From Burkholderia sp. (GTDB lineage Bacteria; Pseudomonadota; Gammaproteobacteria; Burkholderiales; Burkholderiaceae), in assembly GCA_031253835.1 (NCBI GenBank), contig JAIRVP010000064.1:1-64000 (forward strand): 64,000 nt of DNA, given 5' to 3'. Under the pieces are notes generated by a model, which saw only the letters and a program-made list of their open reading frames with translations, did no database searches and was not told the origin of the DNA. Shown piece by piece: positions 18,678 through 28,970 of this stretch; the first letter of the stretch is position 1; every line of letters starts with the position of its first letter. The position numbers were made by a program, and so were the translations under genes.

Positions 18678-18862
18678 ATCGTCTTTCTCCCTTCCTTTCA
18701 AAACCCTTCGGTGCACGACATCGAACGGTCACCCTCCCGCATTTCCCACCCGCCCACGACCGCGCATCGATAGCGCACGTCTGCTATTGCATTCCCCGCG
18801 GCGCTGATTAGGAAATGAAATTTTATTGGTTCTGCTTCCCCGACCGCCCTCGCATAGTGGCG

Positions 18863-18875
18863 CTGACGGCTATAG
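18863..18875 (+). repeat. 13-base motif, copy 1 (upstream of the rhodanese gene)
   Basis: CTGACGGCTATAG lies 73 bases before the rhodanese start. An identical copy occurs at 20658-20670 before the encapsulin shell gene. The TATAG part could serve as a -10 element, or the whole could be an operator shared by two transcripts of the locus. Confidence 0.6.
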
Positions 18876-18948
18876 ACAGCACGCAAGCTGCGACGGCCGC
18901 ATTCCCGGTGTTTTTGTTCATACGAATCTACGAAAACAAGGACGTGTC

Positions 18949-19419
18949 ATGACGGTTGGACTGGAAGAACGAACCGCTGCGCAGCAGGCGCTCGAAGACG
19001 CGCGCGCGGCGGCAGCGGCGGCCGGCACGCCCTATGCGGGCGGCGTCGCGCCGCAAGCCGCATGGGCGTTGTTCTCCGCCGGCGATGCCTTGCTGGTGGA
19101 CGTGCGCACGGCGGAAGAACGGAAATTCGTCGGCCACGTGCCGGAGTCGCTGCATGTGCCGTGGGCGACCGGCACGAGCCTGACGCGCAACCCGCGCTTC
19201 GTGCGCGAGCTGGAAGCGAAGACCGGCAAGGAGGCCGTCGTGCTGCTGTTGTGCCGTAGCGGCAACCGCTCGGCACAGGCGGCCGAGGCCGCGACGAAGG
19301 GCGGCTTCACGCAGGTATTCAATGTGCTCGAAGGGTTCGAGGGCGACCTCGACGAGCGGCAGCATCGCGGTAGCCAGAACGGTTGGCGCTTCCGCGGCCT
19401 GCCGTGGGCGCAGGACTGA
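18949..19419 (+). CDS. Rhodanese-like sulfurtransferase of the Family 2A encapsulin operon
   Basis: A 156-residue single-domain rhodanese from the ATG at 18949. It has the N-terminal D-V-R-T-A-E-E strand, the G-H-V-P segment, and the active loop C-R-S-G-N-R-S with Cys102, which carries the persulfide. Such proteins move sulfane sulfur. It heads a four-gene set (rhodanese, serine acetyltransferase, shell, desulfurase) that recurs around Family 2A encapsulins. There it may take sulfur from or give it to the encapsulated desulfurase; the direction is not established here. Thirty-two bases separate it from the acetyltransferase gene. Confidence 0.92.
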   Translation: MTVGLEERTAAQQALEDARAAAAAAGTPYAGGVAPQAAWALFSAGDALLVDVRTAEERKFVGHVPESLHVPWATGTSLTRNPRFVRELEAKTGKEAVVLLLCRSGNRSAQAAEAATKGGFTQVFNVLEGFEGDLDERQHRGSQNGWRFRGLPWAQD

Positions 19420-19451
19420 TTGATTCACGGCCGTTACAGGGAGAAAGCAGC

Positions 19452-20390
19452 ATGGCCGCATTCGACATCGACGACATCGTTCAATCGCTGCAGACGGTGC
19501 GCCGCGCATGGCGCGAGAAGCAGCGGCGCTCGCTCGAACCGGGCGGGCGCGACCTGCCGGCGCGCGAGGCGCTCGCGCAGATCATCGGCGCGCTGAAGGG
19601 CGTGCTGTTCCCGATGCGGCTCGGGCCGCCCGATTTGCGGCAGGAAAGCGAGAACTTCCACGTGGCCCATGCGCTCGACGCTGCGCTGAATGCGCTGCTC
19701 GCGCAGGTGACGCTCGAGTTGCGCTACGCGGCGCGCCAGCGCAATGCCGACGGGCCGCTCGATAGCGTCGATGAAGTCGCGTCGGCAGCCGTGCAGGCAT
19801 TCGCCGCGCGCTTGCCCGAGATCCGCCGCCTGCTCGACAGCGACGTGCTGGCCGCGTTCCATGGCGATCCGGCGGCCGGCAGCGTCGACGAAGTGCTGCT
19901 GTGCTACCCGGGCATCCTCGCGATGATCCACCACCGGCTCGCGCACGAGCTGTACGGGCTTGGCCTGCCGCTGCTCGCGCGGATCATCGCCGAGCAGGCG
20001 CATGCGGAAACGGGCATCGACATTCATCCGGGCGCGCGCATCGGCGCGGGCTTCTTCATCGATCACGGCACGGGCGTCGTGATCGGCGAGACGGCGATCA
20101 TCGGCGAGCGCGTGCGCGTGTACCAGGCCGTCACGCTCGGCGCGAAGCGCTTTCCGCGCGATGCGGCCGGCCATCTGGAGAAAGGGCTCGCACGCCATCC
20201 GATCGTCGAGGACGACGTGGTGATCTATGCGGGCGCAACGATCCTCGGCCGCGTGACGATCGGGCGCGGCGCGGTGATCGGCGGCAACGTGTGGCTCACG
20301 CAGGACGTGCCGGCCGGCGAGAACGTCACGCAGGCCGTGCTGCGCAGCGAAGCGAACGCCGCGCCGCGCGCGGCGGCGCGGGTTGCCTAG
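19452..20390 (+). CDS. epsC: Serine O-acetyltransferase (EpsC-type)
   Basis: A 312-residue protein, longer than CysE of E. coli (273) and typical of the EpsC group. An all-helical N-terminal half is followed by a left-handed beta-helix of hexapeptide repeats (GARIGAGFFIDHGTGVVIGE, then VRVYQAVTLGAKRFP). The catalytic His/Asp lie in the HPGARIGAGFFIDHG stretch. It makes O-acetylserine from serine and acetyl-CoA, the carbon acceptor for sulfide in cysteine synthesis. Its place between the rhodanese and the encapsulin shell matches known Family 2A loci, coupling cysteine supply to the encapsulated cysteine desulfurase. Confidence 0.93.
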   Translation: MAAFDIDDIVQSLQTVRRAWREKQRRSLEPGGRDLPAREALAQIIGALKGVLFPMRLGPPDLRQESENFHVAHALDAALNALLAQVTLELRYAARQRNADGPLDSVDEVASAAVQAFAARLPEIRRLLDSDVLAAFHGDPAAGSVDEVLLCYPGILAMIHHRLAHELYGLGLPLLARIIAEQAHAETGIDIHPGARIGAGFFIDHGTGVVIGETAIIGERVRVYQAVTLGAKRFPRDAAGHLEKGLARHPIVEDDVVIYAGATILGRVTIGRGAVIGGNVWLTQDVPAGENVTQAVLRSEANAAPRAAARVA

Positions 20391-20398
20391 GAGGCGCG

Positions 20399-20620
20399 AT
20401 GAGCGACCTCATCCATCATTTCGGCGCCAACGTGCGCAAGCTGCGCGAAGCGCGCACGTGGTCGCAGGAGCAGCTGGCCGAACATGCGGGGCTGAACCGC
20501 TCGTATGTCGGCGAGATCGAGCGCGGCGAGGCGATCGCGTCGATCGTCACGGCCGACAAGATCGCGCGCGCGTTCGACGTGTCGATCTCGATGCTGCTGC
20601 CGGGCGTGTACGTCACCTGA
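20399..20620 (+). CDS. Small XRE-family DNA-binding regulator
   Basis: A 73-residue single helix-turn-helix protein from the ATG at 20399, behind GGAGGCG and eight bases after the acetyltransferase stop. The HTH_3 pattern is complete: VRKLREARTWSQEQLAEHAG, LNRSYVGEIERGE, then DKIARAFDVSISMLLPG. It has no ligand-binding domain. Being co-operonic with the sulfur genes and just upstream of the encapsulin shell promoter region, it probably controls this locus, perhaps through the 13-base motif. That link is inferred. Confidence 0.88.
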   Translation: MSDLIHHFGANVRKLREARTWSQEQLAEHAGLNRSYVGEIERGEAIASIVTADKIARAFDVSISMLLPGVYVT

Positions 20621-20657
20621 GGTCGCGTCGCACCGTTTCCCCCTTCGGCTGCACCGC

Positions 20658-20670
20658 CTGACGGCTATAG
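20658..20670 (+). repeat. 13-base motif, copy 2 (upstream of the encapsulin shell gene)
   Basis: CTGACGGCTATAG again, identical to 18863-18875, here 88 bases before the shell gene ATG and 38 bases after the XRE stop. The 137-base gap plus this motif suggests that shell and desulfurase also have their own promoter. Confidence 0.6.
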
Positions 20671-20757
20671 CATGTTGAGCCGGCAGGTGCGTGCTTCCGA
20701 TAATCACCGAGCGTCATAAGCAATCCCGTTTTTCATCTTAAGAACCCGGAGCCACAC

Positions 20758-21690
20758 ATGTCGACCGTTGCAAGCGGCACGGCCGCGCTGAGCGATCACG
20801 CCGCCCGCCAACTAGCGAACGCTACCAAGACCGTCCCCCAGCTTTCCACGATCACGCCGCGCTGGCTGACCCATCTGCTGCAATGGGTGCCGGTCGAGGC
20901 CGGCATCTATCGCCTGAACCAGGTGAAGAACCCGGAAGCCGTGCGCGCCGCGTGCACGCAGCTCGAGGACGAAAGCGTGCTGCCGCAGACCTTCGTGCCG
21001 TACGAGGAACAGCCGCGCGAATATTTCCTGAACGCGGTCAGCACGGTGCTCGACGTGCATACGCGGATCTCCGATCTCTACAGCAGTCCTCACGACCAGA
21101 TCAAGGAACAGCTGCGCCTGACGATCGAGACGATCAAGGAGCTGCAGGAAAGCCAGCTGATCAACAACCCCGACTACGGGCTGCTCGCGAACGTGACCGA
21201 CGAGCAGCGGATCTTCCCGCTGACGGGCGCGCCGACGCCGGACGATCTCGACGAGCTGCTGACGAAAGTATGGAAGGAGCCGGCATTCTTCCTCACGCAC
21301 CCGCTCGCGATCGCCGCGTTCGGCCGTGAATGCACGCGGCGCGGCGTGCCGCCGCCGACGGTCAGCCTGTTCGGCTCGCAGTTCCTCACATGGCGCGGCA
21401 TTCCGCTGATCCCGTCGGACAAGGTGCCCGTCGCGGACGGCAAGACCAAGATCCTGCTGCTGCGCGTCGGCGACAAGCGCCAGGGCGTCGTCGGCTTGTA
21501 TCAGCCGGGCGTCGCGGGCGAGCAGGGTCCGGGCCTGTCGGTGCGCTTCATGGGGATCAACAACCAGGCGATCGCGTCGTACCTGATCTCGCTGTATTGC
21601 TCGCTTGCGGTCCATTCGCCGGATGCGCTGGCTGTCCTCGATGACGTCGAAATCGCCAAGTTCCATGACTATCCCGACACCTACCGTTAA
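20758..21690 (+). CDS. srpI: Family 2A encapsulin nanocompartment shell protein
   Basis: A 310-residue HK97-fold shell protein of the SrpI/Family 2A type. Recognisable segments are TKTVPQLSTITPRWLTHLLQ near the N-terminus, GIYRLNQVK, TDEQRIFPLTGAPTPDDLDE, VSLFGSQFLTWRGIPLIPSD and the C-terminal LAVLDDVEIAKFHDYPDTYR. Related shells assemble into 60-subunit icosahedral capsules of about 25 nm that enclose a cysteine desulfurase; an Acinetobacter member is reported to store elemental sulfur. The final 26 bases overlap the desulfurase reading frame (start 21665), so shell and cargo are translationally coupled. No N-terminal targeting signal; it acts in the cytosol. Confidence 0.93.
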   Translation: MSTVASGTAALSDHAARQLANATKTVPQLSTITPRWLTHLLQWVPVEAGIYRLNQVKNPEAVRAACTQLEDESVLPQTFVPYEEQPREYFLNAVSTVLDVHTRISDLYSSPHDQIKEQLRLTIETIKELQESQLINNPDYGLLANVTDEQRIFPLTGAPTPDDLDELLTKVWKEPAFFLTHPLAIAAFGRECTRRGVPPPTVSLFGSQFLTWRGIPLIPSDKVPVADGKTKILLLRVGDKRQGVVGLYQPGVAGEQGPGLSVRFMGINNQAIASYLISLYCSLAVHSPDALAVLDDVEIAKFHDYPDTYR

Positions 21691-23665
21691 TCCCGGCCTG
21701 GCCGGCGGCGACGCGCATGCGCTGCCGCACGCGCCGCTGCCGGCCGGGTTGCCCGACCCGGCGACGCTCGCGCGGCTCGCGTCCGCGTTCTTCGCGACAC
21801 CACCGGGGCAGGCCACCGCGCCCGGGCTGTCGGCCGGCAGCGGTGCGGCGGGGGGCGTGCCGTCCGCGTTGCCGGCGGCCGCGCCGATCCTCGCGTCGGT
21901 CAGCAACCCGGTGCCGGGCGGTTCGCCGCTCGCGGGCCCGGGCGGCGCGGGCACCGGCGTGCCGGGGCTCGCCTTGCCGCAGGGCAAGGTGCCTGGCGCG
22001 AACCTCGCGCCGTCCGCGCCGACGCACGTGCTGTCGCTCGGCAACCGCGCGCCCGCGCTCGCGCCGCATGCGGCCGCGCAGACCGGGTTGCCCGACAACG
22101 TCGTGTCGATCGCGCCCGCGCTCGAACCGCGTGTCGGCGGCGCGGCGCTCGGCGTGCCGCAGGTGAATGCGCCGGCACCGGAGGGCGCGCCGAAGGTGTC
22201 GCCGTACTACTTCACGGACGGTTCGCTGCAAGGCTGGCAGGCGACGCCGCAGGACATCGTCGTGCCGTCGAACGGCCTCGCGTCGCCGGAAGCGTTCGGG
22301 TTGCCGGGCGACGATGCGCTGCGCGAGCTGCTCGCCGTGCATCGCGAGGCGCCGGTGTCGCGCGCCTCGGGCGCCGACGTGCCGCGCTACTTCATCGAAG
22401 ATGCGCACGCAGCCGGGCCGCAAGGCCAGTTTTATCGCGGCGCACATCCGCCGTTCGACGTGAACGCGATCCGCCGCGATTTCCCGATCCTGCAGGAGCG
22501 CGTGAACGGCAAGCAGCTCGTCTGGTTCGACAACGCGGCGACGACGCACAAGCCGCAGGCCGTGATCGACCGACTCGCGTACTTCTATGCGCACGAGAAC
22601 TCGAATATCCACCGCGCGGCGCATGCGTTGGCCGGCCGCGCGACGGATGCGTACGAGCATGCGCGGGAAACGGTGCAGCGCTTCATCGGCGCATCGTCGC
22701 CCGACGAGATCGTGTTCGTGCGCGGCACGACCGAGGCGATCAACCTGATCGCGAAGACGTGGGGCGTGCAGCATGTCGGCGAAGGCGACGAGATCGTCGT
22801 GTCGCATCTCGAGCATCACGCGAACATCGTGCCGTGGCAGCAGCTTGCCGCGCAGAAGGGGGCGAAGCTGCGCGTGATTCCGGTCGACGATTCGGGGCAG
22901 GTGCTGCTCGACGAATACCGGAAGCTGCTGAACGACCGCACGAAGATCGTGTCCGTCACGCAGGTGTCGAACGCGCTCGGCACGGTCGTGCCGGTGAAGG
23001 AGATCGTCGAGCTTGCGCATCGCGCGGGCGCGAAGGCGCTCGTCGACGGCGCGCAGTCGATCTCGCACATGCGCGTCGACGTGCAGGCGCTCGATGCGGA
23101 TTTCTTCGTGTTCTCCGGGCACAAGATCTACGGGCCGACCGGGATCGGCGTCGTGTACGGCAAGCGCGCGATCCTCGACGACATGCCGCCGTGGCAAGGC
23201 GGCGGCAACATGATCGCGGACGTGACGTTCGAGCGCACGGTGTTCCAGCCGCCGCCCAATCGTTTCGAGGCGGGTACCGGCAACATCGCGGATGCGGTGG
23301 GGCTCGGCGCGGCGCTCGACTACGTGAACCGCGTCGGGATCGAGAACATCGCGCGTTACGAGCACGACCTGCTCGCGTATGCGACGAGCGTGCTCGCGCC
23401 GGTGCCGGGCGTGCGGCTCGTCGGCACCGCGCGCGACAAGGCGAGCGTGCTGTCGTTCGTGCTGAAGGGCTATGAGACGGAGGAAGTCGGGCAGGCGCTG
23501 AACGAAGAGGGAATCGCGGTGCGCTCGGGGCATCACTGCGCGCAGCCGATCCTGCGGCGTTTCGGGCTCGAGGCCACGGTGCGGCCGTCGCTCGCGTTCT
23601 ACAACACGTGCGACGAAGTCGATGCGCTGGTGCGTGTTGTCAGGCGGCTGGCGACGCGCCGTTGA
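21665..23665 (+). CDS. Encapsulated cysteine desulfurase with long cargo-loading N-terminus
   Basis: A 666-residue protein. Residues 264-666 are a SufS/group II cysteine desulfurase: FDNAATTHKPQAV, the PLP lysine K487 in FSGHKIYGPTGIG, and the mobile catalytic Cys625 in RSGHHCAQP. It converts cysteine to alanine and enzyme-bound persulfide. Residues 1-263 are low-complexity, rich in Ala, Pro and Gly, with islands such as LARLASAFF (35-43), GLPDNVVSIAP (141-151) and RYFIEDAHAAGPQGQFYR (241-258). In Family 2A systems this unannotated region directs the enzyme into the shell. The start at 21665 overlaps the shell gene and keeps the frame open. Confidence 0.93.
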   Translation: MTIPTPTVNPGLAGGDAHALPHAPLPAGLPDPATLARLASAFFATPPGQATAPGLSAGSGAAGGVPSALPAAAPILASVSNPVPGGSPLAGPGGAGTGVPGLALPQGKVPGANLAPSAPTHVLSLGNRAPALAPHAAAQTGLPDNVVSIAPALEPRVGGAALGVPQVNAPAPEGAPKVSPYYFTDGSLQGWQATPQDIVVPSNGLASPEAFGLPGDDALRELLAVHREAPVSRASGADVPRYFIEDAHAAGPQGQFYRGAHPPFDVNAIRRDFPILQERVNGKQLVWFDNAATTHKPQAVIDRLAYFYAHENSNIHRAAHALAGRATDAYEHARETVQRFIGASSPDEIVFVRGTTEAINLIAKTWGVQHVGEGDEIVVSHLEHHANIVPWQQLAAQKGAKLRVIPVDDSGQVLLDEYRKLLNDRTKIVSVTQVSNALGTVVPVKEIVELAHRAGAKALVDGAQSISHMRVDVQALDADFFVFSGHKIYGPTGIGVVYGKRAILDDMPPWQGGGNMIADVTFERTVFQPPPNRFEAGTGNIADAVGLGAALDYVNRVGIENIARYEHDLLAYATSVLAPVPGVRLVGTARDKASVLSFVLKGYETEEVGQALNEEGIAVRSGHHCAQPILRRFGLEATVRPSLAFYNTCDEVDALVRVVRRLATRR

Positions 23666-23722: not shown

Positions 23723-24616
23723 TCAGAACCGCACGACCTGTTTCTTCTCGACGCTGAACCCGTCGCGCAGCACGCATGCGGAATCGGCGAAGTAGCGGCG
23801 GGTTTCCGACAGCAGGTCGGTGTTGCCGCGACGGCAGAACACCACGCCCGATCCTTCCTCGGTCAGCAGTTCGTCGATCAGCGATTCGGGTTGCCCGATA
23901 TCGGCGAGGTGGACGTTCTGTACGCCATGCGCGAGCGCATCGAGCGCCTCTCGCACGCACAGCGCCGCATCGGCGGCCGGATGCTCGGCGAGCCATTGCT
24001 CGAGTTCCGTGATGCCGTACAGCCCGGCCAGCTCGCCGAGTTCGTGCAGCAACGCGCTGTCGACCATCATCACCAGCGTGACGGCGCTGGTGCGTTGTGC
24101 GAACAGGCTGCCGAGCCGTTCCGGGCTCAGCAGGCGGTCGTGGCCCGCGTCGTCCGGTGCGACCGGCATCACGACGGGCACCAGTCCGTTCTCCAGAAAT
24201 GCATTCAACGCGGCGCCGTCGAACCGCGCGACCGCGCTCGTGTTCGCGCGGTCGGATTCCGCGCTGGCAACCAGCAAGCCGCCGTCGTGACCGTCGATAC
24301 CGATCGCCCTGGCGCCGTGACTGCCGATCAGGCGCACCAGTTCATGATTGATGCCGGCCATTGCCGCGTGCGCGGTATGGACCGATTGCGTATCGGAAAC
24401 GGCCGGCCCGCTCTGGACGACGATCGGACGAACGCCGGTGAGCGCGAGCAGCGCGACATCCTGCGCGAAGGCCGCACGCGTGTGCGCATCGCTCGCGGCG
24501 CCGCCGTCGACGATGACGACGATCTGCCCGTGCAGCGCCTGCATGAACGGCAGCGAGCGGGCCAGGCCGGCGACGCGCCGCGACGTGAGAGTGGGACTTT
24601 CAGGGTCTGGGAACAT
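23723..24616 (-). CDS. Acetylglutamate kinase (ArgB)-like protein lacking key catalytic residues
   Basis: About 297 residues from the ATG at 24616; a GTG at 24655, 9 bases after the upstream stop, is an alternative start. The fold follows NAGK: LPFMQALHGQIVVIVDGGAA, FAQDVALLALTGVRPIVV, and the C-terminal VHLADIGQPESLIDELLTEE. But the N-terminal catalytic Lys (I-x-K-x-G-G in active kinases) is Val-Asp here, and the H-G-G-G-P loop reads Q-S-G-P-A. It is therefore unlikely to be a normal N-acetylglutamate kinase and may be a regulatory paralogue. It is cotranscribed with a PTS IIA-like gene; no arginine genes are near. Confidence 0.75.
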   Translation of the reverse strand: MFPDPESPTLTSRRVAGLARSLPFMQALHGQIVVIVDGGAASDAHTRAAFAQDVALLALTGVRPIVVQSGPAVSDTQSVHTAHAAMAGINHELVRLIGSHGARAIGIDGHDGGLLVASAESDRANTSAVARFDGAALNAFLENGLVPVVMPVAPDDAGHDRLLSPERLGSLFAQRTSAVTLVMMVDSALLHELGELAGLYGITELEQWLAEHPAADAALCVREALDALAHGVQNVHLADIGQPESLIDELLTEEGSGVVFCRRGNTDLLSETRRYFADSACVLRDGFSVEKKQVVRF

Positions 24617-24664
24617 GGGATTCCGAAAGGATGAAGGGGGCGCCTGTTGCCGCACGGTGCGGCA

Positions 24665-25186
24665 TCAGTGCGTGCGTTGCATCAGCAGGTGAATCTCGCC
24701 GGGCGTCCGTGCATCGCGCGACGCTTGCCGGAACGAGCGTTCGCTGAAGCACCGCGCCGCGTCGGCGAGCAGTTCGAGGTGCGCGCGGTTGTCCTCTTGC
24801 GGCAGGACCAGCACGATGAATTCGCGCACGGGCTTGCGGTCCGGTGCGTTGAATGTAAATGGGTACAGCGCGCGAACGAACAGCGCGACGGCCGCGCCGA
24901 GCCCGTCGACCCGCGCATGCGGAATCGCGACGCCCTGGCCGAGGCCGGTCGAGCCGAGCTGTTCGCGCTTGACGAGTTCGGTCCGGATCCGTTCGGCGGA
25001 TACCGCGCTGCTGCGCTCGACATGGCGCGCGACGAGGTCGAACAACTGGATCGCGCTTTCCACCGGCACGTCGAGCAGGATGTGCTCCGGCGGACAGGCG
25101 TCGGCCAGCCGGGTCGCGAGCGGCGTGCCGCCGCGTCGGTGGGAAAGGTCGGGTTGGCCGCCGACGGCGGCCTGCTGCGTTTGCAT
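24665..25186 (-). CDS. PTS EIIA-like protein (PtsN/fructose IIA family)
   Basis: A 173-residue protein from the ATG at 25186, with GGAGAG upstream. It is an EIIA fructose/nitrogen-type domain: the segment STGLGQGVAIPHARV holds the phosphorylatable His90, followed by FVLVLPQEDN-like strands (EFIVLVLPQEDNRAHLELL). Classical PtsN relays phosphate from EINtr/NPr and adjusts nitrogen and potassium metabolism. This copy is unlinked to rpoN or hprK, so it is a paralogue. It lies 48 bases before the ArgB-like gene on the same strand, and the pair may form a regulatory unit. Confidence 0.85.
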   Translation of the reverse strand: MQTQQAAVGGQPDLSHRRGGTPLATRLADACPPEHILLDVPVESAIQLFDLVARHVERSSAVSAERIRTELVKREQLGSTGLGQGVAIPHARVDGLGAAVALFVRALYPFTFNAPDRKPVREFIVLVLPQEDNRAHLELLADAARCFSERSFRQASRDARTPGEIHLLMQRTH

Positions 25187-26967: not shown

Positions 26968-28620
<1,653 letters not shown>

Positions 28621-28911
28621 TTATTGATTGACGACCGCGACGATGTCTTCTTCGCGCAGCACGAGAAACTCGTTGCCGTCCACCTTGACGGCCTGGCCCG
28701 CGTACTTGCCGAACAGCACGCGCTCGCCGACCTGCAGATCGGGCACGATGCGCTGGCCGTCCGCGTCCTTGCGGCCGGGGCCGACGGCGATCACTTCGCC
28801 CTGGTCGGGCTTTTCGGCGGCGCTGTCGGGGATCACGATGCCCGACGCGGTGGTGGTTTCCTGGTCGAGTCGCTTCACGATCACGCGGTCGTGCAAGGGG
28901 CGTAGGCTCAT
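28621..28911 (-). CDS. groS: Co-chaperonin GroES (additional copy)
   Basis: A 96-residue protein from the ATG at 28911, beginning [18 protein letters not shown], the canonical Cpn10 start. The mobile loop is present in [20 protein letters not shown], and the body [18 protein letters not shown] is standard. It forms the lid of the chaperonin encoded immediately downstream. Transcription begins from a well-formed promoter overlapped by a CIRCE operator, so heat-inducible repression by HrcA is expected. Confidence 0.96.
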
Positions 28912-28943
28912 TTGTTCGTCCTGTGCTGTTCTGTCCGGATTGG

Positions 28944-28970
28944 CTGGCACTCTTTAACAGAGAGTGCTGA
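28944..28970 (-). promoter_or_regulatory. CIRCE operator (HrcA site) of groESL
   Basis: The inverted repeat CTGGCACTC, a nine-base spacer, then GAGTGCTGA differs only at the arm ends from the consensus TTAGCACTC-N9-GAGTGCTAA. It lies directly downstream of the -10 element, where HrcA binding blocks transcription. Confidence 0.9.

Follow-up and report, generated by a model that had tools for sequence, protein, structure and literature searches.

We analysed a window of 64,000 bases from a Burkholderia sp. genome of 7.55 Mb, and in it a cluster of five genes for a virus-like protein shell of the family 2A encapsulins, its desulfurase cargo and three accessory proteins, one of them a small helix-turn-helix (HTH) protein that probably regulates the others. 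Papers are cited by PMC identifier.

A five-gene encapsulin locus

Proteins were compared with the profiles of Pfam (PF identifiers) and NCBIfam (NF identifiers, curated bit cut-offs), two curated libraries that both bear on the identity of the shell. The genes are as follows.

18949-19419, plus strand: rhodanese-like sulfurtransferase (PF00581, 53.9 bits), active-site loop CRSGNRS with Cys102
19452-20390, plus strand: EpsC-type serine O-acetyltransferase (NF041874 EpsC, 158.5 bits, cut-off 150)
20399-20620, plus strand: XRE/CI-type HTH protein of 73 residues (HTH_3, 2.2e-16; closest solved chains C.BclI and C.AhdI)
20758-21690, plus strand: family 2A encapsulin shell of 310 residues (NF041162 encap_f2a, 524.7 bits, cut-off 380; PF19307, 335.2 bits)
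21665-23665, plus strand: cargo, a SufS-type cysteine desulfurase of 666 residues with an N-terminal loading region assigned by homology (NF041166 f2_encap_cargo1, 959.9 bits, cut-off 800)
21665-22453, plus strand: A/P/G-rich N-terminal region of the cargo, 263 residues, with motifs LARLASAFFA (residues 35-44) and SPYYFTDG (179-186)

The profile scores of shell, cargo, acetyltransferase and rhodanese were far above chance level, and homology makes it virtually certain that the five genes form a family 2A encapsulin operon. The original prediction, made from the letters alone, had described a Burkholderia sulfur nanocompartment of rhodanese, EpsC acetyltransferase, shell and desulfurase in this order and in one direction, and the profile searches agreed on each of these labels. 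It had also called the locus complete, which did not hold, since the HTH gene was left out and two operator-like sites were likewise overlooked. Gaps of 32 bases (rhodanese to acetyltransferase), 8 bases (acetyltransferase to HTH) and 137 bases (HTH to shell) separate the genes, and shell and desulfurase share the 26-base overlap that had been predicted.

For the shell, the closest solved relatives were 8t6r (562 bits) and S. elongatus SrpI 6x8m (487 bits). The family 2B model NF041163 likewise exceeded its cut-off (411.8 against 400), with its best stretch at positions 217-449 of a 450-position model. Family 2B was rejected on the higher 2A score, this partial match and the length of 310 residues; PF19307 was the sole Pfam domain, and the cyclic nucleotide monophosphate (cNMP)-binding domain, a 2B feature, was not detected by Pfam. 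A classical CysE assignment of the acetyltransferase was also rejected, as its cysE score of 168.8 fell below the cut-off of 210.65 whereas the EpsC cut-off was passed.

In the desulfurase, the catalytic residues claimed earlier are in place, with the pyridoxal phosphate (PLP) lysine Lys487 in SGHKIYG and Cys625 in RSGHHCAQP. From about residue 256 onward the enzyme domain aligns to solved enzymes of the SufS type, and none of the best 60 of 80 matched chains covers the N-terminal region. That region had been described as a 263-residue disordered stretch; its length stood, it is rich in A (19.4%), P (16.0%) and G (13.3%) and has no cysteine, and its disorder is putative. Among 73 aligned cargo proteins, the window included, many positions in residues 81-165 were at least 90% conserved, which argues that this low-complexity region is under constraint. 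LARLASAFFA and SPYYFTDG match the two loading motifs of SrpI-associated cargo (PMC8049743).

To place the locus among its relatives, of which there were at least 587, the 80 best were taken as a named sample. All five genes stood in one order on one strand in 69 of the 80; the other 11 lacked the cargo (4, all on contigs that stop at or close to that point), the acetyltransferase (1), the HTH gene (3), or rhodanese, acetyltransferase and HTH together (3). The cargo ATG lay at exactly the same place of the shell/cargo overlap (21665-21690 here) in 53 of the 76 named loci with cargo, namely those of Burkholderia, Paraburkholderia, Caballeronia, Trinickia, Cupriavidus and unclassified kin (L057-L111), and in 0 of the remaining 23, e.g., those of Acidovorax, Variovorax and Duganella. 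The shell was 100% identical in eight named Burkholderia loci, including B. cepacia, B. lata and B. aenigmatica, which bears out the host genus.

The shell model was also searched for in 65 genomes of the genus, 150 sampled from the family and 398 sampled from the phylum, and matched in 52, 33 and 17 of them, respectively. Four of the 17 phylum matches look 2B-like, with the main match confined to about positions 50-295 and frames of 471-520 residues. Several family 2A shells can occur in one genome: one genome (G167) gave three matches, and Paraburkholderia xenovorans carries one locus on chromosome 3 (L090) and another on chromosome 2 (L097). GroEL lies near the shell in many related loci, and GroEL-like and GroES-like frames, recognised by eye, lie here at 26968-28950 on the minus strand, a few kb from the encapsulin.

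A survey of 2021 (PMC8346489) reports 1281 family 2A desulfurase operons, in which no accessories are more enriched than serine O-acetyltransferases and rhodaneses. Burkholderia cepacia and B. pseudomallei are among the species for which it lists desulfurase encapsulins, so the nanocompartment gene set belongs to a known kind and is not new for the genus.

The HTH gene and two operator-like sites

The HTH protein carries the HTH_3 domain only, and no NCBIfam model passed its cut-off. Its closest solved chains were C.BclI (1.4e-10) and C.AhdI (2.2e-10), "closest" meaning closest solved in a PDB that holds few XRE proteins. The recognition helix is conserved across 35 aligned HTH proteins and resembles that of C.BclI and C.AhdI. 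The gene was found with the shell in loci of Burkholderia, Paraburkholderia, Caballeronia, Cupriavidus, Acidovorax, Variovorax and Duganella. Within the genus, all shell-bearing genomes (52/52) have a strong ortholog (E 7.9e-26 or better) and none of the shell-less ones do (0/13, best match 5.9e-11).

The candidate control elements of the locus are the following.

18821-18831, plus strand: T-rich box TTTTATTGGTT upstream of the rhodanese promoter, a possible activator site
18853-18858, plus strand: likely -10 element CATAGT of the rhodanese-acetyltransferase-HTH transcript, from the placement of CAT[AG] in relatives
18864-18881, plus strand: putative operator 1 (site 1), TGACGGCTATAGACAGCA, upstream of rhodanese, centre at about +8.5 of the inferred start; from the own-genome search, with a matrix score of 23.6 bits in close relatives that have the identical 18-mer
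20659-20676, plus strand: putative operator 2 (site 2), TGACGGCTATAGCATGTT, upstream of the shell, centre near -43.5 relative to the shell promoter; from the matrix and the own-genome search
20675-20704, plus strand: putative shell-cargo promoter TTGAGC-18-GATAAT, from a consensus scan, one of two hits in 5.5 kb with 0.7 expected

The 18-base near-palindrome TGACGGCTATAG occurs at both 18864 and 20659. The exact 12-mer TGAYGGCTATAG has two copies in the whole own genome, both at this locus, and six more with one mismatch. Scanning the window with up to two mismatches gave 8 matches where 2.66 were expected; one was site 1 on the opposite strand, as a dyad would give. The 65 genus genomes held 103 exact sites, 96 at the locus and 7 elsewhere, against 39 for a reversed control pattern; one shell-bearing genome (G017) lacks the 12-mer and one shell-less genome (G015) has a copy. 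These genus tallies (52/52, 0/13, 96 of 103, and 39) were counted by hand from tables.

An operator weight matrix was trained with sites of the named loci (118 of 148) and took the form of a near-palindrome with the core GKCTA|TAGMC. With a score of at least 10 bits counted as a site, the shell site was present in 73/74 loci with the HTH gene and in 1/14 without it, and shuffled regions gave 1/1760. It was also present in 31/32 further genus and family stretches with the HTH gene (L145-L176, many of the same species), and among 14 loci of the phylum sample (L198-L211) in 3/3 with the gene and 0/11 without.

The single site-bearing locus without the HTH gene proved to be a split operon. In Caballeronia glebae, one contig carries rhodanese, acetyltransferase and HTH together with site 1 (21.4 bits), and a different contig carries site 2 (25.3 bits), the cargo and the only shell found by the family search. 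In one further locus (L165) a 444-residue frame on the opposite strand separates HTH and shell, and the site stays by the shell. Conversely, two Undibacterium species and Duganella sp. 1411 lack the shell site, and a strong HTH ortholog was not found in their genomes (none, none, and a best match of 2.5e-7).

These results suggest that the HTH protein very probably acts at both sites. The conserved element could instead be part of the promoter or the site of another regulator, with the HTH gene an uninvolved neighbour. Binding by the HTH protein is only predicted, and the conservation of the shell site may be partly coding in several Comamonadaceae and Oxalobacteraceae, where the site shares bases with the last codons of the HTH gene (protein ends LMAIAC, LAAIAC or LTAIAC; e.g., L112, L116, L118, L124, L126-L130). 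However, site and gene are gained and lost together, within the named loci as well as across the phylum sample; each half of the split operon retains a site; and the exact element is nearly confined to this locus in the genus. We therefore regard an uninvolved neighbour as quite improbable.

A link between protein and site is also hinted at by HTH residue 35 and shell-site position 15, where Thr went with G in 7/7 pairs and Ser with T in 65/67 and with G in 2/67. This covariation is suggestive; the Thr rows possibly form one clade, and we set it aside as evidence.

Promoter geometry and the proposed circuit

Site 2 stands in a fixed relation to the predicted shell promoter, which matches the consensus at 9/12 positions. 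TTGA follows the site centre at a distance of 7 bases in 71/71 distinct shell promoters, and in 49/71 the -10 hexamer starts 30 (36 promoters) or 31 (13 promoters) bases past the centre, the other 22/71 having no ATAAT there. The centre thus falls at about -42.5 to -43.5. Among the distinct rhodanese promoters, 44/56 have a CAT[AG] that starts 20-22 bases ahead of the operator centre, so that site 1 would lie over the inferred start; the sigma-70 consensus scan did not pick up the CATAGT.

From these positions, self-repression at rhodanese together with activation at the shell is the simplest reading. The HTH protein, probably as a dimer, would bind both near-palindromes. At site 1 it would cover the start of the rhodanese-acetyltransferase-HTH transcript and limit its own synthesis, and at site 2 it would sit against the -35 of the separate shell-cargo promoter, a position from which a CI-type dimer can activate. 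Since the protein has no ligand domain, it would serve as a concentration switch, with rhodanese, acetyltransferase and regulator made first and shell and cargo later. At PRM of phage lambda, a CI dimer centred near -42 activates the promoter and CI also controls its own synthesis. The arrangement proposed here is alike in both respects, the CI-type dimer near -42 and self-control; the HTH protein differs from CI in having no second domain.

The direction of the effect at the shell promoter is left unsettled by sequence, and we lean only slightly towards activation. The HTH protein may be a plain repressor of both promoters, with the shell promoter not activated, a reading that we hold possible but doubtful. 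Site 2 abuts the -35 of a promoter that is already a fair consensus match, and C.Kpn2I, bound at a place upstream of a strong promoter, inhibits that promoter, probably by keeping sigma from the -35 (PMC6237814). Set against this is the constancy of the geometry, with the 7-base distance to TTGA invariant and the distance to the -10 varying by one base; a fixed spacing fits polymerase contact at -35, whereas a repressor needs no exact placement.

Several observations weigh against the combined picture of an encapsulin operon with its own regulator acting at two sites. The 73/74 count includes loci that trained the matrix and is thus not independent, and part of the 7-base spacing is built into the matrix that picked the sites on which it was measured. 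The loci share descent, and the named sample takes only the 80 best of the 587 or more relatives. The shell site is degenerate (5.9 bits) in L083 and like loci, and the rhodanese site reached 10 bits in only 57/74 loci with the HTH gene (0/10 without). Duganella sp. 1411, the HTH-less locus L135, keeps a weak remnant-like rhodanese site of 3.4 bits, and two second shell copies (L110, L111) have no site in genomes that carry the HTH gene beside another shell. A second adjacent operator, as used by C-proteins, was not recognised. With these points weighed, we consider it probable that this is a five-gene family 2A encapsulin operon that carries its own regulator.

The input to such a circuit would probably be sulfur limitation, sensed by an activator at the first promoter, which is a guess. 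Boxes like TTTTATT[GC]GTT lie upstream of rhodanese in many relatives, including the HTH-less loci L135 and L137-L140. In the own genome TTTTATTSGTT has two exact matches and WTTATTSGTTY four, the same two included; of the matches outside the locus, one precedes a porin-like frame (read by eye), one lies inside a long coding frame and one has no clear target, and a longer T-rich pattern matched this locus only. CysB was considered as the activator at this box and left as a guess; in the CysB literature consulted, including the excerpt of PMC10179380, no link to this operon was found.

Extended to the Burkholderiales, we tentatively suggest that a controller-like circuit represses its own transcript and activates shell and cargo, in trans where needed, which would give delayed, threshold-like assembly, with the acetyltransferase product feeding back on a sulfur-starvation activator.

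Surroundings, function and likeness to known systems

Directly downstream and convergent with the cluster lies a gene for an amino-acid-kinase family protein (23723-25186, minus strand), with similarity to acetylglutamate kinase below the cut-off, followed by a phosphotransferase system (PTS) EIIA-2 protein. Elsewhere in the window, a sulfatase family protein (PF00884; 39288-41354, plus strand) is another possible sulfur gene, and a hydroxymethylglutaryl-CoA reductase family protein (PF00368; 9958-11814, plus strand) has about 200 extra N-terminal residues in the mechanical open reading frame.

As in published relatives, the shell would self-assemble into an icosahedral particle and load the cargo through its N-terminal region, cysteine would be desulfurated inside, and rhodanese and acetyltransferase would link the product to sulfur transfer and new cysteine synthesis. 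An Acinetobacter relative reportedly stores elemental sulfur. Rather than storing it, the capsule here may channel sulfur to the co-regulated rhodanese, as was proposed in PMC8346489; rhodanese lies in the same cluster in relatives, and encapsulation raised the kcat of the S. elongatus desulfurase about sevenfold (PMC8049743). Sequence decides neither way, and channelling is in our view a tentative alternative.

In the literature available to us, the only trigger met for family 2A expression was sulfur starvation in a cyanobacterium, S. elongatus (PMC8049743). A one-domain regulator with two compact sites would make the switch-on question experimentally accessible, and if the circuit is real, it would put a controller-protein-like switch to metabolic use and offer engineered compartments a ready-made one. 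The literature search, which mostly covered sources other than subscription papers, turned up no paper about a regulator of this kind for encapsulins.

The locus resembles the family 2A desulfurase encapsulin of Synechococcus elongatus (SrpI/CyD; PMC8346489) in its shell family, a cargo with two loading motifs and the rhodanese and serine acetyltransferase accessories. It differs in the dedicated HTH gene and two operators, which go unmentioned in the excerpts of PMC8346489 and PMC8049743.

For the regulator, the nearest likeness is to the controller (C) proteins C.AhdI, C.BclI and C.Esp1396I of type II restriction-modification systems, with which it shares size, the HTH, a pseudo-palindromic (here putative) operator with TATA centre and outer TG, and a site beside the -35. 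C.Esp1396I reads GAC-TATA-GTC plus the outer TG (PMC3758141) through R35, T36 and R46, with Y37 on the backbone (PMC4041747). HTH residues R34 (invariant), S/T35 (here Ser) and Y36 correspond to R35, T36 and Y37, and the 35 aligned HTH proteins have no Arg at the place of R46. Restriction-modification genes were not found among the cluster and the scanned neighbours (amidase, hydrolases, amino-acid kinase, PTS EIIA). Membership in the C proteins was rejected on these two grounds, and the comparison is kept in the sense that the HTH protein may work like one. Unlike C proteins, it would read half-sites with GKC instead of GAC and would control a metabolic compartment.

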